From NCBI GenBank assembly GCA_017965475.1, contig JAGCPV010000120.1:1-36742 (forward strand): 36,742 nt of DNA, read 5' to 3'. Origin of the DNA: Prevotella sp. (GTDB lineage: Bacteria > Bacteroidota > Bacteroidia > Bacteroidales > Bacteroidaceae). Below, piece by piece: positions 2,955-22,145 of this stretch (position 1 is its first letter; each line of letters opens with the position of its first letter). Position numbers and translations under genes: made by a program. The notes beneath the pieces are model-generated. The model saw only the letters and a program-made list of their open reading frames with translations, had not been told where the DNA came from and did not search any database.

Positions 2955-3027
2955 TACACCCGCAGGGGCTCGAACCCTGGACACCCTGATTAAGAGTCAG
3001 GTGCTCTACCAACTGAGCTACGGGTGC
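2955..3027 (-). tRNA. tRNA-Lys(CTT), copy 1
   Basis: Acceptor arms GCACCCG and CGGGTGT, anticodon loop CTCTTAA (anticodon CTT), canonical GGTTCGAGCCC T-arm and discriminator A. It is the first gene of the tRNA operon, about 22 nt downstream of the -7 box. Confidence 0.93.
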
Positions 3028-4590: not shown

Positions 4591-5183
4591 CTTAGATCAA
4601 TTATTTCTGCTTGTGGGAAATCCTTGGCGTTGAAACGAAACTGACTGTCGGGGATGTTCTGTTTCTTGAGGTTCGTGATGTCGAAGATTGTCCATTTGGT
4701 GCCTTGCAGGAGCTTCACCTGCGTAGGATGGTAGGAACTCTTGTTGATGCTGATGAACAGTTCACGAATCTTCTTGTCCTTCGACGTAGCGGTCAGGTGA
4801 ACGACGAAGTCCTTGCCCGACTTGTTCAGCGTGGCGTTATAACCGCTCTTGTAGAGGTTAATGAAGTTGTAGGGGTTGATGGCCTGCAACTGCGACTCCG
4901 TGGGAGTAGTCACGTTTACCTCGTCGTTGTCCTTCATATAGGTCCACTGTGTCTTGCCGTCGAACCAGATGATGGCCTGCGGGGTCGTTGCGTGGAACTT
5001 CCTGCCTTTCACGGAGATGGTACCACTGGTGTTACCTATGCTACCGGTCATCTTGAAATTTGCTTGGACACCGGACTTCACCGTGATATTGGCAGCAGCC
5101 TTGTCGAGCACCTCCTTGGCTGTTTGCGCAAAGGTGAGGGTACTCAAGAGTACCGTTGTTATCAGAAAACATAATCTTTTCAT
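4587..5183 (-). CDS. lolA: LolA-like periplasmic lipoprotein carrier
   Basis: A 198-residue protein with a Sec signal peptide (residues 1-20, ending TFAQ). The mature part matches the LolA fold: an N-terminal segment AKEVLDKAAANI, repeated beta strands, a WFDGKTQWTY strand typical of the family around residues 73-82, and a C-terminal region with strands carrying DITNLKKQNIPDSQFRF. LolA shuttles lipoproteins from the inner to the outer membrane through the periplasm. It starts 10 bases after ftsK and overlaps the DUF5687 gene downstream. The ftsK-lolA order is seen in many Bacteroidetes (general knowledge). The family call is firm; exact orthology to LolA is slightly less so because several LolA-like paralogues exist. 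Confidence 0.85.
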   Translation of the reverse strand: MKRLCFLITTVLLSTLTFAQTAKEVLDKAAANITVKSGVQANFKMTGSIGNTSGTISVKGRKFHATTPQAIIWFDGKTQWTYMKDNDEVNVTTPTESQLQAINPYNFINLYKSGYNATLNKSGKDFVVHLTATSKDKKIRELFISINKSSYHPTQVKLLQGTKWTIFDITNLKKQNIPDSQFRFNAKDFPQAEIIDLR

Positions 5184-14006: not shown

Positions 14007-14399
14007 TTATTTGTTAGCTAAGACTTCCTTAAAGAAGCGTATGGCGTCTTTGAAAGAATCAAAATCATTATTGATGATAGAAAAGATTTCATAGGCATCA
14101 ATATCAAAGTAATGATGGGCAATAACGTCCCTTACGCCTTTTACTTCCTTCCATTCGATAGAAGGGTATTGAGGGAGAAGTTCAAAGTTCGTCAGTTTGT
14201 CAAGATTCTTAAAACTCTCTCCAATAGCTTCAATCACCATACATGCAGCGTCCAACTTCTCTTTCCCTTCAGGAGTTTCAAGGAAATCATCAGCACTACG
14301 GATAACCGTGTTACGAATCTGAACCGTATTGATTGCCTCTTCTATTCTGTCAAGAATGTGAAGTGCTGTCAGTCTGTCATTTGAAGATAAGGATTCCAT
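14007..14399 (-). CDS. hepT: HepT-like HEPN toxin RNase
   Basis: A 130-residue HEPN-domain protein of the HepT (DUF86) family. The catalytic motif Rx4HxY is complete: R90, H95 and Y97 in RDVIAHHY. In characterised pairs HepT is an RNase toxin, and its tyrosine is modified with AMP by the partner MntA. Mostly helical. The gene overlaps the upstream nucleotidyltransferase gene by 23 bases, the usual antitoxin-first order. It sits at the tkt-side edge of the accessory island. Because all active-site residues are present, the toxin is probably functional, but this is inferred. Confidence 0.9.
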   Translation of the reverse strand: MESLSSNDRLTALHILDRIEEAINTVQIRNTVIRSADDFLETPEGKEKLDAACMVIEAIGESFKNLDKLTNFELLPQYPSIEWKEVKGVRDVIAHHYFDIDAYEIFSIINNDFDSFKDAIRFFKEVLANK

Positions 14400-14673
14400 C
14401 TCGATCTATTTGTTGGATTAAGAAGTTGTCCATATTCTTATGGATACGCAAGACATCAACCTTACAATTCAGCAATTCTTCAAGATAGATTTTCAGTCCA
14501 GAACGCCTCAATAGGCTGGGCTCCATCTCAACACATACGTCAACATCGCTTGATTCGTTTTGCTCATTACGGGCTACAGAACCAAACAACCTCATAGAAC
14601 GGACGCCAAACTTGTCTGCTACCACATTCTTACAGGTTTGTAGTTTCTTTATGCATTCAGCTCTACTTATCAT
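14377..14673 (-). CDS. mntA: MntA-like minimal nucleotidyltransferase antitoxin
   Basis: A 98-residue minimal nucleotidyltransferase. The fingerprint is GSVARNEQNESSDVDVCVE, with G31-S32, the metal-binding D43 and D45, and a third acidic residue D73 in VDVL. In the type VII HEPN/MNT systems this enzyme neutralises HepT by AMPylation. It is the first gene of the pair and overlaps hepT by 23 bases. The ATG at 14673 is only 8 nt from the -7 box, so the message is nearly leaderless. Confidence 0.9.
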   Translation of the reverse strand: MISRAECIKKLQTCKNVVADKFGVRSMRLFGSVARNEQNESSDVDVCVEMEPSLLRRSGLKIYLEELLNCKVDVLRIHKNMDNFLIQQIDRDGILIFK

Positions 14674-14795: not shown

Positions 14796-15695
14796 CTATT
14801 CGTTATTTCCCAAGAACGAAATCCGCTTTAGTGGCAGCATATTCTTATCGTCATCTGTCATTTTGTCATAGAACTCTAGCCACATGTCGATAAACTCATC
14901 ACCATCTATCAAACGGATGAACTCACGCGAACTTGTCCCAGTAGTCTTTGCATCAGGCGAGAATGTGCCGCTGGTGACAAACAGGGCGATGTCTCCAGCA
15001 CGTAGTACACCCAACAAGGCACGAATATCCGAGGCACCGATGGCCGTTTCTGGCTTATGCTTCACCTGTACTTTTATACGTGGAGTCTGAGCGCCAAGTG
15101 GATCTAAGTAAGCTGTTATGTCGATACCGCCGTCTTTGCCTTTGGGAGCAATGAAGGGCGTGTGATAACCCATAGCTCGTAGTAAAGCCGCTATCATGTC
15201 TTGAAATTCATACGGACTCTTTGAGACAATGAATTTTCTAATGCCTTCGCGAGCATCTGATTCCAGCATATTCAACTCCTCAGCCCTGTCTCTTTCTACA
15301 TTGTCGTCCGTAGGTTCTTCGTCATGTTTGTCCTCTTTGGGATTCAACTTTCGCCATTCACGGTAAGCCACCTCGCCCTTTTCCATCACCTCCTCAGGCG
15401 ATAGTTTGATGGCAGCTTCACCTTCAGGCGTGAGATACCACATGCCGTTCTTTTTGACAATAAGACCCGCCTTGGCGTAGTTAATGGAGTAGAACTGGAA
15501 ACTGTTCGTCAATCGGATATACTTGTTCTTGCCAGCTGGTTCTTTCTCCCATTCCGTCAGATTCACGTTAGTTTCCACAAACGGATAAAGCTCTTTGGCG
15601 GGCATACTACCACCCCGACGGCTTATCTCTTTCATGACAGCATACAGCGTCTTGGTTGCTGTTGCCTTTGTTCTGCCTACATGTTCTTTTGCCAT
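14796..15695 (-). CDS. Mrr-type restriction endonuclease
   Basis: A 299-residue protein with an N-terminal winged-helix region (Mrr_N-like, about 10-95) and a C-terminal Mrr nuclease domain (about 157-275). The PD-(D/E)xK-type core is visible as KDGGID (D192) followed by VQVKHK (Q210, K212), the QxK variant typical of Mrr. A charged linker (about 115-150) joins the two parts. The start codon lies 7 bases after the stop of the restriction-methylation gene, so they form one operon. Mrr enzymes usually cut modified DNA. Here it may instead be an accessory nuclease of the adjacent system; that is inference. Confidence 0.85.
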   Translation of the reverse strand: MAKEHVGRTKATATKTLYAVMKEISRRGGSMPAKELYPFVETNVNLTEWEKEPAGKNKYIRLTNSFQFYSINYAKAGLIVKKNGMWYLTPEGEAAIKLSPEEVMEKGEVAYREWRKLNPKEDKHDEEPTDDNVERDRAEELNMLESDAREGIRKFIVSKSPYEFQDMIAALLRAMGYHTPFIAPKGKDGGIDITAYLDPLGAQTPRIKVQVKHKPETAIGASDIRALLGVLRAGDIALFVTSGTFSPDAKTTGTSSREFIRLIDGDEFIDMWLEFYDKMTDDDKNMLPLKRISFLGNNE

Positions 15696-15702
15696 ATATA
15701 TT

Positions 15703-18261
15703 CTAAGAAATTATGGATTCCATTATGTTAGTAGCATCTTCGTTCTGGGCAATAGATTGTTCGAGTGCCTCAATTGACGCAATAACCTTTGAACCAATAC
15801 GGTCAATAACATTTCTGTCTTTTGGTATTGGTATTAGTATCTCTCCTATTACATTAGGCTCCAAATGCTCTTGGTTTGTTCCATAAGCATTCTTTAATAT
15901 AAGACTCTGTCCAATTGGTGATTTGAGGAACTGATAAACATAGCCACGCAGATTTTTATCATCAATAACGACTCTGATTAGATTATTTGTTGCAATATGT
16001 CCATCATGCATACTTAAAGCGTAAGATATACGCCCTAGTGTTCCTGAATCTGATATTAGAATATACCCTTTGTAGATGGTTAACTCTGCTAATTGTCGTA
16101 ACATTTGTTTTTTGCACTTTTTCTCATCAAGGTATTTTACATTATCAGAGTTGAGTTGTGTTATTGCTGTACCAGTGAAGTATTTGCGAATACCTTCTCC
16201 CTCTGTTATTCCTTGGTCTGCATAGGGGCGTTTAAATCTTGGGCCATTGAATACTGCCTGTGCTATTTCAGAAAGAGGCAAGACGTCAAAATCATCGCGT
16301 TCATTAAGCATAATTATTTTTTTCAAAGCTTCATTATGCTTTGGAAGGTAATGAATCGGATTAAATGAAAGCGACGCTTTATCAAGTTCATTAACGGATA
16401 TCGAGAAACGGAATTCACTTTCCATTAATTCTCCTTTGACAAACTGATGGTAACATTCTGCAATATCCGTTAGATCCTCATCTAATTGCAAATGCCCGTC
16501 AACTACTATTGGTTCTCCATTTGCATCTTTCCGTAACATAGTTTCTCCTCGACTATTTTGACCTACCTTATTGGAGATTGCCATGAAAATTCGATAATCT
16601 TTTGGTGGATTATCACATTTACGCATAAGAAGCACAGAAGCTTTTGAACCACAAAACGGTTCAAAAGTATCCTCATGAAGATTTATAACAGCCAACAATT
16701 CGCATTCGGAAAGGACTTTGCGTCTAATGGCCAATGCCTCTCTATTATCAAGTTGACCTTTGGCCATTACGATACATATAAGGCCATCTTTCTTTATCCA
16801 TTTTAAATATTGTTCCGTAAACAACAATTCTGGGGCTACACCAATGCCTTCATTCAGTTTCTCATCATAAACGACTTCACCCCAATTGTTCACATTCCAT
16901 GAATGGCCAATATCAAACTTGCTTAGAACGGTCTTATTCTTAATACGTATGTCATTCCCTGATCCAAATGGAGGATTCGATAAAATAACATTTGGCTTAC
17001 CAAAGCCGCATTTTTCACAGAAGCTTGCTGATAATTTTTCTGTTTCATTTAGACTATCAACACGCTCTATACCACCATGACCATCTTTCCCTAATAGCAT
17101 ATTGGCCTTAGCTATTTTTACAAGTTTTGGTGATATGTCTATACCAAACAAATTGTGAACAACTTTGGCGCGAAGTACCTCCTTTGCAGACTCTCCACGC
17201 TTTGAGTCCTTAATCTTCCTTATAATGTAGTTCATGGAAGTAATAAGAAATCCGCCACTTCCACATGAGGGGTCAAGAATTATCGATTTGTCATCCGGAT
17301 CAACCATCCTTACCATCATAGATACTACAAGACGATTAGTGAAGTATTGACCTCGTTCTCCTTTGAGATGTGAGGCCACATAGACTTCGTAGGCAGTACC
17401 AATAACATCGTAAGGTGACTCAAGGAAAGAATATTGCTGAAGTTGAGAAATAACGATTGCTAATTTTTCATCCGATACAGTTATTTCCTCACTCTCTGAG
17501 AACACATCAGGATAGCGCTCTTTTACAGCATTAAAGAGATCACGCACTCTCTTACATGCCGTTGCTCGTTTTACTGGGTCGTCATATTCTTCTTGTGTCA
17601 TTCGGAACTGACAAGCCTCGTCAGCACTTTCTTCATCCTCATGTTTAGCTAATAGGATTCGAGTCATATCAAGAGCAACATCTTCCGAGTCATTACCAGA
17701 ACGATACATGGCATTATGGCATCTTTTGAACGCAAGTTTCAAATCAACGGGAACAATAAGATCGCTCTTTTTATATTTTCCTACAGCATCCCAAGGTTCG
17801 CCGTTTCTTGGAATTCCGATAGTCTCATGAATCGTGTTGTCTTTTTCACGACGATAGAAGATAATTCGCTCACCATTTGTCCAAAAACCACCTTGTGCCG
17901 ATGTGGGAATTAGGTAGGATATCAATTGGTTGTCAGGCTCCTTGATATTAGGAGCCTTTATCTCAGCTATAAGTAAAATTTCTCCCTGCCTATTATTTGC
18001 CTTAGCTTCTGCATTGGTATAGACAACTATATCTGCACGCTTTGTTTCATCGCGACCAATTTGGATAGCCTTTTCTAAAGCAATTTGCTCCTTGCTGTAC
18101 TTGAATTCTTCAACAAGGATTCTCGCAGTTTTCTGTCTGATACGTTCTTCAGGCTTGTTTTCTCTACGAATATTGCTGTCAAGGTAGTCAATAATTTTAC
18201 CTTGTGCGTCCAGTCTGATTTGAAATTCTTGGGATTCAACCCATTCGTCAACAGTAATCAT
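15703..18261 (-). CDS. Single-chain restriction-methylation-specificity protein
   Basis: An 852-residue fusion. Residues 1-180 resemble the HsdR N-terminal nuclease domain, with D77 in RADIVVY and E100-x-K102 in IAEIKAP as the PD-(D/E)xK site. Residues ~280-560 form an HsdM-like N6-adenine methyltransferase with DPSCGSGGFL (330-339), FGIDISP and NPPFG (429-433). The C-terminus (about 655-850) is one HsdS-like target recognition domain with FNGPRFKR, a SDSGTLGR strand and a final helix, that is, half of a normal HsdS. This fits a type IIG or type I-like enzyme acting alone. It is more AT-rich than the flanking genes, has an Mrr gene behind it and a structured leader ahead. Exact class not provable here. 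Confidence 0.85.
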   Translation of the reverse strand: MITVDEWVESQEFQIRLDAQGKIIDYLDSNIRRENKPEERIRQKTARILVEEFKYSKEQIALEKAIQIGRDETKRADIVVYTNAEAKANNRQGEILLIAEIKAPNIKEPDNQLISYLIPTSAQGGFWTNGERIIFYRREKDNTIHETIGIPRNGEPWDAVGKYKKSDLIVPVDLKLAFKRCHNAMYRSGNDSEDVALDMTRILLAKHEDEESADEACQFRMTQEEYDDPVKRATACKRVRDLFNAVKERYPDVFSESEEITVSDEKLAIVISQLQQYSFLESPYDVIGTAYEVYVASHLKGERGQYFTNRLVVSMMVRMVDPDDKSIILDPSCGSGGFLITSMNYIIRKIKDSKRGESAKEVLRAKVVHNLFGIDISPKLVKIAKANMLLGKDGHGGIERVDSLNETEKLSASFCEKCGFGKPNVILSNPPFGSGNDIRIKNKTVLSKFDIGHSWNVNNWGEVVYDEKLNEGIGVAPELLFTEQYLKWIKKDGLICIVMAKGQLDNREALAIRRKVLSECELLAVINLHEDTFEPFCGSKASVLLMRKCDNPPKDYRIFMAISNKVGQNSRGETMLRKDANGEPIVVDGHLQLDEDLTDIAECYHQFVKGELMESEFRFSISVNELDKASLSFNPIHYLPKHNEALKKIIMLNERDDFDVLPLSEIAQAVFNGPRFKRPYADQGITEGEGIRKYFTGTAITQLNSDNVKYLDEKKCKKQMLRQLAELTIYKGYILISDSGTLGRISYALSMHDGHIATNNLIRVVIDDKNLRGYVYQFLKSPIGQSLILKNAYGTNQEHLEPNVIGEILIPIPKDRNVIDRIGSKVIASIEALEQSIAQNEDATNIMESIIS

Positions 18262-18560
18262 ACGCTAATATTTTTTAGCGCACCCTACTATCAATCACGC
18301 CAAGACGCAAAAAGGGCGTGATGCTCTTATTGCGTTCAGCAAGAGGCGAAGCCTAGGAAACTTGGTACCTCTGTAAATCACAAGATGCACCACGCGCCAT
18401 GCGTGTGCACCGCTATTATGATTTAACAGAGAACCATTTACGGCTCACCTGTCACATATTATTTCGTGCTTGTTATACCAATTTAAGTTTCCTAGGCTTG
18501 CTTGGCTGAACGCGAAATAATAGCGAGTGCTATTTGTCAGTCCGGATTTCTCCCCGAACC
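18262..18560 (-). ncRNA. Candidate structured leader or small RNA
   Basis: A 300-base non-coding stretch between a consensus promoter and the restriction-methylation gene. Read from the minus strand it folds into nested helices: a long outer pairing (18332-18340 with 18505-18513, 18349-18363 with 18485-18499), an inner 12-bp helix with one bulge (18369-18380 with 18419-18431), a hairpin inside that (18386-18395 with 18401-18409), a 5' hairpin (18519-18534) and an 8-bp hairpin (18294-18301 with 18315-18322). A last 6-bp hairpin (18263-18280) touches the start codon. No U-run terminator was seen, so it may be a cis leader rather than a free RNA. I do not recognise a known RNA family. Confidence 0.5.
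18332..18513. repeat. Long inverted repeat
   Basis: Arms GCGTTCAGC (18332-18340) plus AAGCCTAGGAAACTT (18349-18363) are the reverse complement of AAGTTTCCTAGGCTT (18485-18499) plus GCTGAACGC (18505-18513), all perfect, with an unpaired gap inside each arm. They enclose about 120 bases. The same repeat can be read as an RNA helix or as a recombination site. Confidence 0.9.
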
Positions 18561-18565
18561 GAGGG

Positions 18566-18596
18566 CAAAGATAGTAATTATTTCTTTAACAACAAA
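18566..18596 (-). promoter_or_regulatory. Promoter of the leader/RM operon
   Basis: Minus strand: TTTG (18593-18596), a 19-nt spacer, TATCTTTG (18566-18573). Full consensus. Transcription would start near 18560, about 300 nt ahead of the restriction-methylation start codon. Confidence 0.75.
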
Positions 18597-18615
18597 ACGA
18601 TTTTGTGTTTTTCTA

Positions 18616-18644
18616 TCAAAAAGGCACAGGATTGCTCCCGTGCC
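18616..18644 (-). terminator. Intrinsic terminator of the DUF4417 cassette
   Basis: Arms GGCAC (18623-18627) and GTGCC (18640-18644), with inner GG/CC pairing, followed in the minus direction by TTTTT. It ends the three-gene transcript about 65 bases after its last stop codon and isolates it from the RM operon. Confidence 0.7.
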
Positions 18645-18708
18645 CGATTGTCATATAGTGATTTCATCGATTAAAATACTTAACACAAGCAATAATATAC
18701 CACCCGAA

Positions 18709-19137
18709 TTAGTTCAGCGTAATGATATATGATCTATTAAGTACCTCTTCCAATGTTTTGCCATCAATCCTGATACCGTCCCAAAGTAAAGTACGATCTT
18801 CACACGAGAAGATTACTTCACCCTCTACATGGGTGTCCCCCTTACATTGGGAGTTGATATAAGGGCTGAAATCTTTATCACGAGGGAGCACCTTCACTTC
18901 TATGGGAGTACGCTCTGTGTGGATACCATAGAAGCTATCATTATCCACGTAGTAGAAAGCCAGATTCAAACCAACTTTCACTACTTCGAACTCGAATATC
19001 TCCTTCGAGACGAAGGAGCGGGCTTCCTGCTTTTCGCGTGCAGTCCATCCTAGTTGGTCAAGATAAAGATGCTCGTTAGCTCCAAAGAAATCCTTGACCA
19101 CAATAGTTCTGTTTCCTAATTTGTGTCTTTTTTCCAT
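18709..19137 (-). CDS. Unknown protein, third gene of phage-like cassette
   Basis: A 142-residue acidic soluble protein that I do not recognise. There is no signal peptide or membrane segment. Sequence features are mixed strands, an early REKQEARSF segment and a C-terminal RIDGKTLEEVLNRSY helix. It overlaps the preceding gene by 22 bases, so it is co-translated with the cassette, and it is followed by an intrinsic terminator. Its position after a possible effector could suggest a partner or immunity role, but nothing in the sequence proves that. Confidence 0.6.
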   Translation of the reverse strand: MEKRHKLGNRTIVVKDFFGANEHLYLDQLGWTAREKQEARSFVSKEIFEFEVVKVGLNLAFYYVDNDSFYGIHTERTPIEVKVLPRDKDFSPYINSQCKGDTHVEGEVIFSCEDRTLLWDGIRIDGKTLEEVLNRSYIITLN

Positions 19138-19589
19138 ATCTTACCTTTTTGATTAAAATCCACTATCTTAGCAATGAGCGTATCCAACTTAGAATCAATA
19201 GGAAAGTAGTTGGACTTGTCATGGCTCTTTCTTCCAATTATACCTGGTGAGATTTCACCCCAGAGATGAGAATGCGAACCATTCTCATTTTTGGAAAACG
19301 GGATGAGGTTTCCATGACTGTCAAACTTCAAGTCAACACTCACAGAGAGCTTTTCTTTCTGGTATATACCTATACCGGTAACAACAATCTTCCCGGTTTT
19401 CTTATCCACTGAGGCGAACAAGTATGTAGGACTATCTGAATTTGCATTCATTATAATCTTATCATGCTCGACATTTTCACCGAATAGCAACACTTTATGC
19501 CCATCTATCCGATATTCAGTTTCAATGTGGGTGCGACTGGCTTCAGGCACTCCACCAAACTCCTTAGAGTAAGAACCATTTCCTCCCAT
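19116..19589 (-). CDS. Unknown phage-like protein, second gene of cassette
   Basis: A 157-residue protein with no signal peptide. It begins MGGNGSYSKEFGGVPEASRT, then a RIDGHKVLLFG strand and a later HSHLWGE segment containing two histidines, and ends FNQKGKIWKKDTN. The glycine-rich opening and the His-x-His segment remind me of small modules at the ends of phage head proteins and of polymorphic toxins, but this is only an impression. It overlaps the DUF4417 gene by 26 bases and the third gene by 22 bases. Function unassigned. Confidence 0.6.
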   Translation of the reverse strand: MGGNGSYSKEFGGVPEASRTHIETEYRIDGHKVLLFGENVEHDKIIMNANSDSPTYLFASVDKKTGKIVVTGIGIYQKEKLSVSVDLKFDSHGNLIPFSKNENGSHSHLWGEISPGIIGRKSHDKSNYFPIDSKLDTLIAKIVDFNQKGKIWKKDTN

Positions 19590-20289
19590 AGCGTGATGAT
19601 TTTTCGTTGTCGTTTAAGAAATACGTACTGATACCCTCCACTTCGTTAGGTTGTTTAGCACCATAGCGTAGAATGTGGAGTGGCTGGAGAATGTCTATGA
19701 CGTAAGGATAGATAATCTGCCAATTTTCTTTGGCCCTCTTATCGCTCCCAATGCCTGAACTGTTCATGGCTATCACCGAATGTTTGGGATAGCCATCAAG
19801 ACAAGCCTCAATGATAGCAGGATCGACCACTACATTGGGTACCACGATGTTTCCTCTTGTTCCCACCCATGCCATGTGTAGCTTGTTGTAGAACGAGACA
19901 GCCATTTTCATTGGTATTGGCATTTCGGGCTTGATTGAGATGTCCAATCCGATCATCACCTTGTGGTGGGCAATCTTGTCATAATGACCATACGGGTCAT
20001 TGATGAAAGGTATCAGGTTCTTGTCGGGCGTGTAGAAATGCGGTATTACACCATCTACCGTAGTGTTTCCGAGACGATAGTAACAACAGATGTCGCGAGG
20101 TGTCTCAATTGTACATGTAGAGACTTTCGGCATCTGGTACTTAGATGTAAAGTTCACGTTCTCACACAAAGACATGCTGAACTGGTTGGTAGGCTGGAAT
20201 ATGCCGTGCCAACCAACATCTGTCTTGTCCTCATTTAGTTTTTCAGAGCCAAATTCGGTGAAAAGCTCAAGTTGTATGTTATCTGACAT
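19564..20289 (-). CDS. DUF4417 family protein
   Basis: A 241-residue protein whose middle and C-terminal parts match DUF4417: PHFYTPDKNLIPFINDPYG, a VMIGLDISIKPEMPIPMKM segment, a VPNVVVDP strand and a SVIAMNSSGIGSDKR loop. DUF4417 proteins are found mainly in phages and integrative elements and have no established function. I chose the ATG at 20289 (MSDNIQLELFTEFGSE); the frame is open 9 codons further, with a less plausible start. It is the first gene of a three-gene unit with 20-30 base overlaps. No consensus promoter was found directly upstream. Confidence 0.75.
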   Translation of the reverse strand: MSDNIQLELFTEFGSEKLNEDKTDVGWHGIFQPTNQFSMSLCENVNFTSKYQMPKVSTCTIETPRDICCYYRLGNTTVDGVIPHFYTPDKNLIPFINDPYGHYDKIAHHKVMIGLDISIKPEMPIPMKMAVSFYNKLHMAWVGTRGNIVVPNVVVDPAIIEACLDGYPKHSVIAMNSSGIGSDKRAKENWQIIYPYVIDILQPLHILRYGAKQPNEVEGISTYFLNDNEKSSRYGRKWFLL

Positions 20290-20353
20290 ATTTTTAAAAT
20301 ATATGCATTTAACCAAAACTTTTCTAATTCTCGTTCGGGAACTGGCTCTTTAT

Positions 20354-20384
20354 TTTGCAGTTTGCTTTATTTGTTTTAACTTTG
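20354..20384 (+). promoter_or_regulatory. Consensus promoter for plus-strand RNA
   Basis: TTTG (20354-20357), a 19-nt spacer, TAACTTTG (20377-20384). It points right, against every neighbouring gene, and no coding sequence follows on that strand. Confidence 0.75.
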
Positions 20385-20389
20385 CAAAT

Positions 20390-20503
20390 GCTTTATGGCC
20401 ACTCCCATTGGCGTAAAGTGCCGCCAGACTCTCCGAGCCTCGTAAACTAGTAGAGTCCAGCTCCTCGCCCTGCCGTAGTCCCCTACAGGTCAGGGCCTTT
20501 TTC
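20390..20503 (+). ncRNA. Candidate small RNA (~110 nt)
   Basis: The stretch runs from just after a consensus promoter to the T run of a strong intrinsic terminator. Internal pairing includes GACTCT with AGAGTC and a GGC/GCC hairpin near 20400-20425. No plus-strand open reading frame of note is present. It lies divergent to the DUF4417 cassette and convergent with the PIN gene. The 64-codon frame on the opposite strand is probably a by-product of the conserved RNA. I do not recognise the family. Confidence 0.6.
20467..20502 (+). terminator. Intrinsic terminator of the small RNA
   Basis: GCCCTG (20467-20472) pairs with CAGGGC (20491-20496), continued by CC/GG and GTAG/CTAC with two single-base bulges, giving 12 pairs around the loop TCCC, then CTTTTT. 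A strong terminator in the plus direction. Confidence 0.85.
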
Positions 20504-20544
20504 GTATTTAATATTTCATTTGCGTGTTCATGTCCTCCTTTCAA

Positions 20545-21063
20545 TTAGAGACTGCCGCGCCATTTCTCGATACGAAGATCGATCTCTGGCTTGGGGAGTC
20601 GGTGGTTGATACTATATAAAAGTTCGAGTTTATCAGCTGCTATGGCAGGGGTGATAACTTTATGTTCGACCATTTTGTCGAAAATGTAGATTGTTCCGTG
20701 TACTTCAACGCCGTCTTCAGCCGCCAGTCTGCGCAGGTTGCCATCACCAGTCAGGAGAATGTATTTATTTTCAGAAGCATATTGCCATACACTGAAATCG
20801 GCTATCCGGAGATTGCATCTTCTTCGTCGGCTATTGAAAAAGTTGATTAGTCTTAGCATCTCATCAGGCGTGAAGGCTTTGACTGTGAGGCATCGTGTCT
20901 GGACCAATGTTCTTACCTGGGCCTTCTGCTCTGGAACCGTCACTTCGGAAATGACAATGTCGGTGGTATGAACCTTCATGGGCAGAAGGAAGAACTGTTC
21001 CAGCACACCTGCTTCTATCAGGTCGATGAGGATATTTGTGTCGCTGACTACAATGATTTCCAT
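20545..21063 (-). CDS. PIN-domain RNase, toxin-like
   Basis: A 172-residue PIN-domain protein. The acidic metal site is complete: D8 (VVSDTNILIDL), E40 (VISEV), D89 (RIADFSVW) and D107 (TGDGNLR). The form resembles DUF3368-type predicted nucleases. Its ATG overlaps the stop of the upstream XRE-ImmA gene by one base (TAATG), so the two are coupled. Pairs of an XRE/ImmA-type regulator with a PIN protein are known as toxin-antitoxin-like modules. RNA target unknown. Confidence 0.85.
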   Translation of the reverse strand: MEIIVVSDTNILIDLIEAGVLEQFFLLPMKVHTTDIVISEVTVPEQKAQVRTLVQTRCLTVKAFTPDEMLRLINFFNSRRRRCNLRIADFSVWQYASENKYILLTGDGNLRRLAAEDGVEVHGTIYIFDKMVEHKVITPAIAADKLELLYSINHRLPKPEIDLRIEKWRGSL

Positions 21064-22145
21064 TAGAGTGTATTGGCGTTTTTGCGAACTGTGTTAATAC
21101 TGACTCCGAGGAGAGAGGCTGCCTTGGAGGTTGAGATGAGTTCGTGGGCCAGAGCACTATAGACCATTGCCTGGAAGTGAGTGGTGGCTTTCTCGGTGAA
21201 GCGAGACTTGACAATATACTCGTTGAAACTCGGACTTTGCCTTTTCCGGATGCAGAAGCCTCTGTATCGTCCTTCGCCAACAATCCCAAGGTCTTTGAGT
21301 TTATAGACTATTGCATCAATGGAAATGCCATAGTTGATGCTGAGTGATTCGAGTTCAGCATAAGCAATCTGGTCTTTGCTTTCAAATTGTGACAAAAGAA
21401 TCTCGCAGGGTAGCAACATCTCATTGGCAAAGGCGTTGCAGAGGTTCTCCTTCTGATGCTCGGTGAGTCCTACGGAGAAATGTTTATTATATAAAAGGTG
21501 ACAGAGTTCGTGGAGCGCAGTAAGTCGGCGACGCTCAATATGAGTGTTGGTGCTATTGAGCACAATGACCGGGGTCTTGTCGTTGACAATACCACTAACA
21601 CCATCGAAATCCTCTGGTGCCTCAGTGAGCAATACTTTAATGCCATGTACCTCTAGCAACTCCATGGTGTTCAGAATGGGCGCGTTGCCAAGTTGCCAGA
21701 CTTCCCTGACCTTCTGAGCCATTTTTACCATATCGCTGTTTAATGTCAGTGGCTGGGATGGTTTCAGAGACTCTGAGATTAGATCGTCAGATTTGACTTG
21801 GAGAATCTCTTCGATCTCCAGATAACGTTCCACTTCGTCCTGAATCTGGACTTTGAGCGCTTTCTGATCGCCAGCGGTGGTGTCGGACTTCTTGCGGAAA
21901 GACACCTTGAACTCGTCGAGATCGAACGTGAAGGGGCGGAAGAAATAGTCGAAGTCACAGCCGAGGGCTTCGGCCATGGCAATGATGATGGTGCTACTGG
22001 GCATCATCTTAGCCTTCTCATACTTGGAGATAGCCTGCTTGGTCACGATTCCGTTCATCTTTTCGCTGAGTTTCTCCATGGAAAGCCGGGCTTTGAGGCG
22101 GGCCTGCTGGAGACGCTTTGCGAAGGTCATTAAGTTGTTGTCCAT
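21063..22145 (-). CDS. XRE regulator with ImmA/IrrE metallopeptidase domain
   Basis: A 360-residue two-domain protein. The N-terminal helix-turn-helix (about 6-60, RLQQARLKARLSMEKLSEKM and KQAISKYEKAK) is XRE-type. The ImmA/IrrE zinc peptidase domain holds H212-E213-x-x-H216 (LHELCHLLYN) and a downstream E242 in AFANEMLLP. A second short HTH-like segment lies near the C-terminus (SKAASLLGVSINTVRKNA). I chose the ATG at 22145; the frame continues 21 codons upstream into the leader region. It is the first gene of the pair with the PIN toxin and probably regulates its own promoter through the inverted repeat at 22208-22242. Members of this family cleave partner proteins under stress (family knowledge). 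Confidence 0.88.
   Translation of the reverse strand: MDNNLMTFAKRLQQARLKARLSMEKLSEKMNGIVTKQAISKYEKAKMMPSSTIIIAMAEALGCDFDYFFRPFTFDLDEFKVSFRKKSDTTAGDQKALKVQIQDEVERYLEIEEILQVKSDDLISESLKPSQPLTLNSDMVKMAQKVREVWQLGNAPILNTMELLEVHGIKVLLTEAPEDFDGVSGIVNDKTPVIVLNSTNTHIERRRLTALHELCHLLYNKHFSVGLTEHQKENLCNAFANEMLLPCEILLSQFESKDQIAYAELESLSINYGISIDAIVYKLKDLGIVGEGRYRGFCIRKRQSPSFNEYIVKSRFTEKATTHFQAMVYSALAHELISTSKAASLLGVSINTVRKNANTL

Follow-up and report, generated by a model that had tools for sequence, protein, structure and literature searches.

Region 18262–20503 of a contig from Prevotella sp. (NCBI GenBank assembly GCA_017965475.1, contig JAGCPV010000120.1) raises the question of what joins three overlapping genes, one of them encoding a DUF4417 protein, to the two RNAs that flank them, one of ∼300 nt leading into a DNA methyltransferase gene and the other of ∼110 nt. 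A reading of the letters alone, referred to below as the sequence-only reading, had tentatively taken all of these parts for a single system, possibly of defence or mobile-element control. The analysis of the whole 36,742-nt stretch (the window; positions 1–36,742 of the forward strand) and of related genomes gave a different answer. The ∼300-nt RNA is very probably a real and hitherto undescribed structured RNA of restriction-modification (R-M) genes. With a probability of about 0.6, we consider it to be a cis-acting, riboswitch-like attenuating switch of the R-M operon; the signal, the switching and the action in cis are what we infer from the comparisons given below.

An RNA leader upstream of R-M genes

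The RNA lies on the minus strand (18262–18562) and ends at the ATG of the methyltransferase gene, an assignment that draws on its fold z-score, its homologues and pair counts in an alignment. The z-score was −6.9 on this strand and the same (−6.9) on the plus strand, since the element is quasi-palindromic. A promoter motif of the Bacteroidales type, TTTG-N19-TATCTTTG, was read from the letters at 18566–18596 (minus). Of 115 leaders, 110 have a TAnnTTTG/TTCG box no farther than 130 nt upstream of the core; among 105 control windows, 9 do. A folded RNA of this size with a promoter had been proposed in the sequence-only reading, and both features were found again and are conserved in other genomes. 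A known RNA family was rejected, as there was no Rfam match: at gathering thresholds, Rfam 15 gave only tRNAs in the window, and positions 18200–20600 gave only weak chance matches at E-values up to 5. One leader of the second class described below likewise gave only weak chance matches, and four other leader loci a single tRNA.

The distribution of the RNA was analyzed in the 301 genomes of the window's family (the family set), using the whole 2.3-kb region as the DNA query. The RNA was found in at least 40 of these genomes, its own included (counting matches that cover 80 nt or more within query positions 1–351), a lower bound because two candidates per genome were scored. The matches were 68–89% identical, and some genomes had two or three places. 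Beyond the window nearly only the RNA part of the query was matched, the rest giving short spots or promoter-flanking stretches. In nearly every locus read, a gene of R-M type lay directly 3′ of the RNA on the same strand. A gene-independent 22-letter pattern of the RNA core was also run on a species-genome collection and returned at least 119 stretches; the 80 matches listed with titles came from Bacteroidales or broader Bacteroidota, mostly of the rumen and gut. One of the leaders, L086, is that of an isolate, Marseilla massiliensis An824 (contig NZ_JACJJG010000100.1). Pattern and family search together gave at least 139 distinct core hits besides the window. The association of the leader with R-M genes was in this way obtained without recourse to the genes themselves. 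In the wider order the pattern was nearly absent (2 of 295 genomes, the window's own among them).

The full leader, up to its tail, was present in 118 of 140 sequences (the 139 core hits and the window). The 22 without a tail comprised six cut by contig ends, seven with the 5′ part only, three diverged leaders before EcoRI-type genes (L066, L076, L144), five otherwise diverged (L064, L078, L100, L113, L115) and one probable chance match (L120). A modification, restriction or defence gene, belonging to several unrelated families, was located downstream in 108 of the 111 classified full leaders. Gene classes are BLAST clusters, each scanned through one or two of its members. The next gene was EcoRI_methylase (an EcoRI-type adenine methyltransferase) in 86 of the 118 full leaders and a large protein in 11; ten of the latter carry an NPPY/NPPF methylase motif and the eleventh is cut short, and PDB sequence searches with two members of this class gave no match. 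The remaining classes were N6_N4_Mtase (3), N6_Mtase (2, including the window), HSDR_N (2), DUF4268 (2), N6_N4/PglX-like (1), a DrmD-like helicase (1), other genes (3) and unclassified (7, six of them for want of sequence). A second gene belonging to a single cluster, DUF262-like by eye, was found in 68 of the 83 loci that have a second gene.

The three other genes are those of L035 (glycosyltransferase-like by eye), L112 and L087. In L087 (2379–2700) the leader is followed by an open reading frame (ORF) that starts like an EcoRI-type methyltransferase and continues acyltransferase-like by eye, a rearranged remnant. In L053 (5914–7298), transposase-like genes, IS3-like by eye, lie directly upstream of the leader R-M unit.

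EcoRI_methylase itself occurs in 90 of the 301 family genomes. Upstream of 30 such loci, which were among the best-scoring matches and not a random draw, the leader described here was found 17 times, the second class 10 times (by eye) and neither of them three times.

A conserved fold with a pseudoknot

The fold was analyzed in an alignment of 93 leaders (104 had passed the length and tail filters, and 11 were removed by hand for odd tails or near-identity), to which the following pairing values refer. RNAalifold predicted helices P1 and P2, one hairpin and a helix at the start codon, with double changes in 16 of 35 pairs, and an unsupervised pairing scan added P3 and a long-range helix, 2:3. 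Overall, 96.2% of cells were paired, compared with 30–43% in slid controls, and none of 500 shuffles reached the observed value on any pairing measure.

In the window, the RNA (minus strand throughout) begins with a 5′ hairpin (18537–18562) whose sequence varies between loci and whose segment folds in nearly all of them (108 of 110 leaders at −3 kcal/mol or below). The aligned core consists of P1 (18505–18513 with 18332–18340), P2 (18490–18497 with 18351–18358) and P3 (18475–18480 with 18363–18368), which were 99.4, 99.6 and 93.0% paired, with double changes in 10 pairs across the three. The alignment pair counts also revealed a pseudoknot, PK1, formed by UAUUAUUUC (18514–18522) and 18457–18465. 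PK1 was 96.8% paired; one-sided changes in 56 cells keep a G-U pair, the 27 cells left unpaired include 15 at the end pair, and no double change was found among the 93 leaders. In the start-codon region (18263–18296 in the window), the helix GAUUGAUAGU × ACUAUCAAUC was 96.7% paired. The window keeps the first arm at 18287–18296, and the usual second arm is replaced there by a local hairpin, CGCUAA/UUAGCG, that touches the ATG. The element is, like riboswitches and attenuators, a conserved structured 5′ leader with covariation.

Could the conserved unit be the DNA rather than the RNA? A miniature inverted-repeat transposable element (MITE) or a recombination arm, serving to swap R-M genes behind a fixed promoter, would account for the quasi-palindromic DNA, for the repeated change of downstream class and for seven broken copies that lack an R-M context. 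A quick tree with 90 labelled leaders did not group them by downstream gene; its 15 non-EcoRI leaders require 15 class changes, the maximum. Such a module is nevertheless quite improbable, as it does not explain the compensatory pair changes, the pseudoknot or the fixed orientation to the gene. The window's own genome holds one full copy, the core pattern was absent from a viral contig collection, and the leader DNA had no match in plasmids or in 50,697 phage records. A MITE was rejected on the single own-genome copy and the 108 of 111 classified leaders before R-M or defence genes, the seven broken copies lying elsewhere; a phage origin was rejected on the viral-contig and phage-record results. 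Gene swapping may be a side effect of the leader. In the broken copies (L021, L056, L071, L096, L109 with its second hit, core at 3015 minus, L116 and L119), the 5′ part is followed by unrelated sequence.

Two mutually exclusive helices and a U tract

In trp-type attenuators, pairings 1:2 and 2:3 exclude each other. The aligned leaders have the same arrangement. Strand 1 (18401–18410, minus, as are all strands given here) and strand 2 (18381–18396) form a local hairpin, 1:2, which was 91.6% paired, with 7 of 11 pairs double-changed. Strand 3 (18315–18329) is an alternative partner of strand 2, and helix 2:3 was 97.1% paired (its extension 88.6%), with 7 of 10 pairs double-changed. Strand 2 is thus common to two pairings that cannot coexist, each of which is kept by compensatory change. 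When strands were permuted between leaders, none of 2000 permutations was as good as the matched strands, either for 1:2 (energy −13.63, compared with −11.76 permuted) or for 2:3 (−18.15 and −16.36). The control pairings 3:4 and 1:4, taken from the same sequences and hence with the same relatedness, had no such effect (1668 and 1968 of 2000 permutations as good), and 3:4 was rejected as a conserved helix on this result. The mutually exclusive conserved helices that are typical of riboswitches and attenuators are therefore present in the leader, with the negative controls behaving as expected.

Strand 3 is followed directly by a U tract (18310–18313 in the window, seen in the letters and in the alignment). 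At least five U in the 7 nt right after strand 3 were found in 84 of the 93 leaders, compared with 468 of 19,838 windows elsewhere, and in this main leader class the tract lies ∼50 nt 5′ of the start codon. Two diverged leaders from outside the alignment, L100 (6179–6390) and L113 (core at 4718 minus), have a quite different 2:3 helix, GUGUAGUUUCUU × AAGAAACUACAC, followed by UUUUU; both lack the start-codon tail and precede an exonuclease-like gene (by eye).

A transcript ending at this tract would be ∼250 nt long and could itself be the product, a trans-acting small RNA merely sharing the promoter of the R-M gene. The leader's own promoter motif, its very stable fold and the terminator-like 3′ end agree with this idea, which is improbable given the near-constant place of the RNA at the R-M ATG in the leader loci collected here and the conserved helix that continues beyond the U tract to the start codon.

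A second leader class with putative terminators

A second class of leaders was represented by 15 sequences, nine from methyltransferase loci and six from a DNA search (which matched 15 of 151 genomes). Its sequence is unlike that of the main class and its architecture is alike, with covarying P1 and P2. An 11-bp terminator followed by at least five U in 7 nt was found in all 15, located 43–69 nt 5′ of the start in 14 of them. This terminator shares 6 nt of its 5′ arm with the 3′ strand of P1, a covarying helix, and its 3′ arm is also able to pair with an internal strand. Judged from these pairings, the arrangement has the usual layout of an attenuator. The gene downstream is of EcoRI type in 12 of the 15 (judged from N-terminal letters). 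Second-class loci are L173, L175, L176, L182, L184, L188, L192–L194, L196, L205, L206, L208, L209, L211 and L212; the leaders of L205 and L206 precede other genes, and the gene of L211 is ambiguous.

A proposed attenuating switch

In the mechanism that we favor, the transcript would start at the leader's own promoter and fold into the variable 5′ hairpin and the compact P1-P2-P3 core, with PK1 joining the stretch immediately 5′ of P1 to one beyond P3. Helix 2:3 together with the U tract would stop transcription, and helix 1:2 would act as the antiterminator. A bound ligand, a protein or a cell state would choose between them, and the hairpin just before the AUG may add a translational layer. 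Sequence features that would suit an expression platform are the U tract, the start-codon helix and the putative second-class terminators. As the same leader precedes several unrelated R-M families, a signal common to R-M use (e.g., the methyl donor pool, DNA entry or infection) is more likely than autoregulation by a single protein.

The start-codon helix also allows another view, namely that the leader controls translation only, by ribosome access, the U tract being an incidental linker. Its second arm lies 1–10 nt before the ATG in most leaders, with the 96.7% pairing given above. To our knowledge, Bacteroidetes lack Shine-Dalgarno-led initiation, so that structure at the start site would matter. 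Control of translation alone is unlikely, as it leaves unexplained the U tract in 84 of 93 leaders, the two covarying exclusive helices and the terminators in 15 of 15 second-class leaders.

Several observations weigh against the attenuating switch. The terminator of the main class would be long-range, with strands 2 and 3 ∼50 nt apart in the window and the pairing crossing P1–P3, which is unusual, and the pairing scan of the 93 leaders found no conserved short local terminator in this class. Strand 3 is also able to form a local, non-covarying hairpin with a 3′ segment (3:4). The permutations ignore relatedness, which is addressed by the two negative controls alone, and in PK1 and the start-codon helix the variation is too low for true covariation tests. 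The window's own leader is without the usual second start-codon arm, ACUAUCAAUC. Seven of the 139 core hits are broken copies outside an R-M context, and the count of gene changes is rough, coming from a short tree whose support values were not read.

The switch model predicts named strands and a named U tract, which makes it open to a reporter assay. R-M systems need tight timing, and their control would gain a new layer if a conserved pseudoknotted leader acts on unrelated R-M families. More tentatively, and with the odds somewhat against it, the leaders could constitute a shared class of RNA sensor, in at least two sequence-distinct versions, which in gut and rumen Bacteroidales gates unrelated R-M and defence genes on a common signal. 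One signal would then set the state of several defence systems, with defence genes being swapped beneath a common RNA "immune switch".

Relation to known modes of control

With riboswitches and attenuators the leader shares a structured core, two exclusive helices, a U tract or terminator before the gene and a start-codon hairpin. It differs from them in being without a known ligand, in the putative long-range terminator of the main class and in preceding unrelated R-M and defence genes instead of those of one pathway.

Control at the RNA level would be common to the leader and to R-M systems under antisense RNA control, such as Eco29kI; an antisense RNA of EcoRI has reportedly been studied, and EcoRI-like methyltransferases are the commonest leader genes. 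A 2025 review of R-M systems names proteins, promoter methylation, antisense RNAs and start-site hairpins as controls, so that RNA acts there either as an antisense transcript (e.g., Eco29kI) or as a hairpin covering a start site; its main text has 0 occurrences of riboswitch, attenuat-, leader and untranslated (PMC12707154). Control of the Eco29kI type is there described as acting through antisense transcripts from inside the endonuclease gene (PMC12707154), whereas the leader is a sense 5′ RNA with a conserved fold. Small RNAs are treated in general terms only in the accessible text of PMC12114051. Like the C proteins described in the available text of PMC12707154 and PMC8053105, the leader would time or limit R-M expression; in contrast to them it is an RNA and not a DNA-binding protein, and it is common to several R-M types. 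A search of the literature for structured, leader or cis-regulatory RNAs of R-M systems found no description of the leader among the titles and abstract openings listed, an absence that is not proof, subscription papers having been mostly outside its scope.

The DUF4417 module is separate from the leader

The three genes between the RNAs are, as the sequence-only reading had stated, overlapping minus-strand ORFs, the overlaps being 26 and 22 nt. The first (19564–20289) encodes the DUF4417 protein (PF14386, E = 9.7e-21, 74.5 bits against a cut-off of 28.9). The product of the second (19116–19589) starts with MGGNGSY and carries an SHxHxW motif, and that of the third (18709–19137) is acidic; neither has a Pfam match, and the best PHROG and NCBIfam E-values were 0.07 and 0.12. 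The terminator claimed for the trio is present as a terminator-like hairpin (18622–18645, minus, read 18645–18622), found by a sequence scan; the call depends on its position, since the three such sites in the stretch are close to the 2.3 expected by chance.

The term phage-like, which had been applied to the trio, fits only its DUF4417 family, found by tblastn in 90 of 50,697 phage records, all at <60% identity. Nothing matched the second protein among phage records, plasmids and viral contigs, and a search of the viral contigs with one DUF4417 protein gave no relatives. Fusions of ParB-CTPase and DUF4417 in phages are described in the accessible text of PMC12704722; they have the DUF4417 domain in common with the trio protein, which in turn is without a ParB-type match and stands with two other genes and a divergent small RNA in its module. 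DUF4417 was found in 17 of the 301 family genomes and in 3 of 198 genomes of the order, including the window's own (two over the cut-off), and one related genus gave no further place. Homologues of the second or third protein adjoin DUF4417 in several loci. The trio is a recurrent module, separate from the leader R-M unit. A small conserved protein with the motif KYPPNYE..GYKN..E was also found beside the module, sometimes in place of the acidic protein (L105 2735–3082, L133 683–1030, L155 2485–3144, L159 2430–2771, L162 658–972).

By DNA search, leader and DUF4417 occurred together in 2 of 301 genomes (G000 and G081; 2.3 expected), and with six diverged-leader genomes added by profile in 4 of 301 (also G050 and G263; 2.6 expected). 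A leader lay within ∼7 kb of 3 of 18 DUF4417 places (the window, G081 and G050), several of the 18 stretches being shortened by contig ends, and a profile search found the second leader class absent from the 17 DUF4417 stretches fetched. In the other direction, trio homologues were detected in 7 of 139 leader-core loci, and leader R-M units with a neighbouring homologue of the trio or of DUF4417 are those of the window, L030 (G081), L055, L105, L109, L133 and G050. The rarity of joint occurrence shows that these are two neighbouring units in one island and not one obligate system. Leaders number about one per five or six genomes, so that chance placement should put hardly any of them near DUF4417; the excess points to shared islands.

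This excess over random placement is what could be said for the trio and both RNAs forming one system, a proposal that is very improbable in view of the mostly separate occurrence of its parts, the kind of outcome that the sequence-only reading had itself named as refuting it. Only 4 of 17 DUF4417 genomes have both, not clearly above the 2.6 expected, 15 of 18 DUF4417 places have no leader in their stretch, gene order and orientation of the two units vary between loci, and the leader is tied to R-M genes. The obligate system was rejected on these counts. The co-occurrence check that had been suggested for the proposal thus divided the two RNAs, the ∼110-nt RNA going with the trio (6 of 15 regions, see below) and the ∼300-nt RNA occurring mostly apart from it. 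In L224 (G050:C1:27500–42000), DUF4417 lies ∼3 kb from a diverged leader with an EcoRI-type methyltransferase and a DUF262-like gene, the units facing each other as in L105.

A small RNA divergent from DUF4417

The plus-strand RNA of ∼110 nt (20389–20504), recognized from its fold, its motifs and a comparison of loci, is oriented divergently from the DUF4417 gene. It was recovered with the promoter and terminator ascribed to it: the motif TTTG-N19-TAACTTTG (20354–20384, plus, read from the letters), a terminator hairpin ending near 20498 and a fold z-score of −2.7, its stability being equalled by 2 of 200 shuffles. An ORF of 64 aa that covers it on the minus strand (P0004) was rejected as a gene because it has no match in Pfam, PHROGs or NCBIfam and the promoter and terminator motifs there belong to the other strand.

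A promoter box and a terminator, 104–122 nt apart and pointing away from DUF4417, were found in the window, L105, L162, L156, L157 and L159. Such a unit thus lies upstream of DUF4417 in 6 of 15 regions, compared with 16 of 4000 random and 16 of 2000 AT-rich windows (0.4–0.8%), a comparison partly fitted, since the size range of 98–126 nt was fixed after the six loci had been viewed and several DUF4417 starts are match starts rather than proven codons. In the opposite direction the unit was found in none of the 15 upstream regions. As DNA the small RNA was detected only in its own genome (1 of 301), and among the six loci a common sequence is clear only for L156, L157 and, in part, L159; place, direction and size are kept in all six. 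By its position, direction and size upstream of DUF4417, the RNA most likely belongs to the DUF4417 module, and it gives a separate starting point for work on this domain of unknown function. Any role as the partner of a nuclease-like module, or as its target, is guesswork.

In the type III toxin-antitoxin system ToxIN, a tandem-repeat antitoxin RNA lies upstream of, and is co-transcribed with, a ToxN-like toxin. The module resembles ToxIN in having a small RNA of fast-changing sequence beside genes that possibly include a nuclease. It differs in the divergent orientation of the RNA, in which no repeats were seen by eye, and no toxin family match was found for the trio, so that the features of a type III system were not seen.

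Neighbouring genes

The surroundings had been described as an island of restriction and toxin-antitoxin genes, and restriction genes as well as toxin-antitoxin-like genes are present there. On the leader side lies the methyltransferase gene (15703–18261, minus), the first under the leader, which by profile matches encodes an 852-aa fusion of HSDR_N, N6 DNA methylase and specificity-like parts. The fusion resembles MADS2 and MADS5 of the MADS defence system, below both NCBIfam cut-offs. The second gene of the leader R-M unit (14796–15695, minus; profile match) encodes an Mrr-type restriction nuclease, homologues of which are present in other leader loci. Beyond it, at 14007–14673, two small overlapping ORFs look by eye like a HEPN/MNT toxin-antitoxin pair.

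On the other side, a PIN-like gene (20545–21063, minus; weak match below the Pfam cut-off) adjoins a gene for a helix-turn-helix (HTH)-ImmA regulator (21063–22136, minus; PADLOC RmrA, 2.7e-46). The order HTH-ImmA, PIN, small RNA, DUF4417 is common to the window, L105 and L162.

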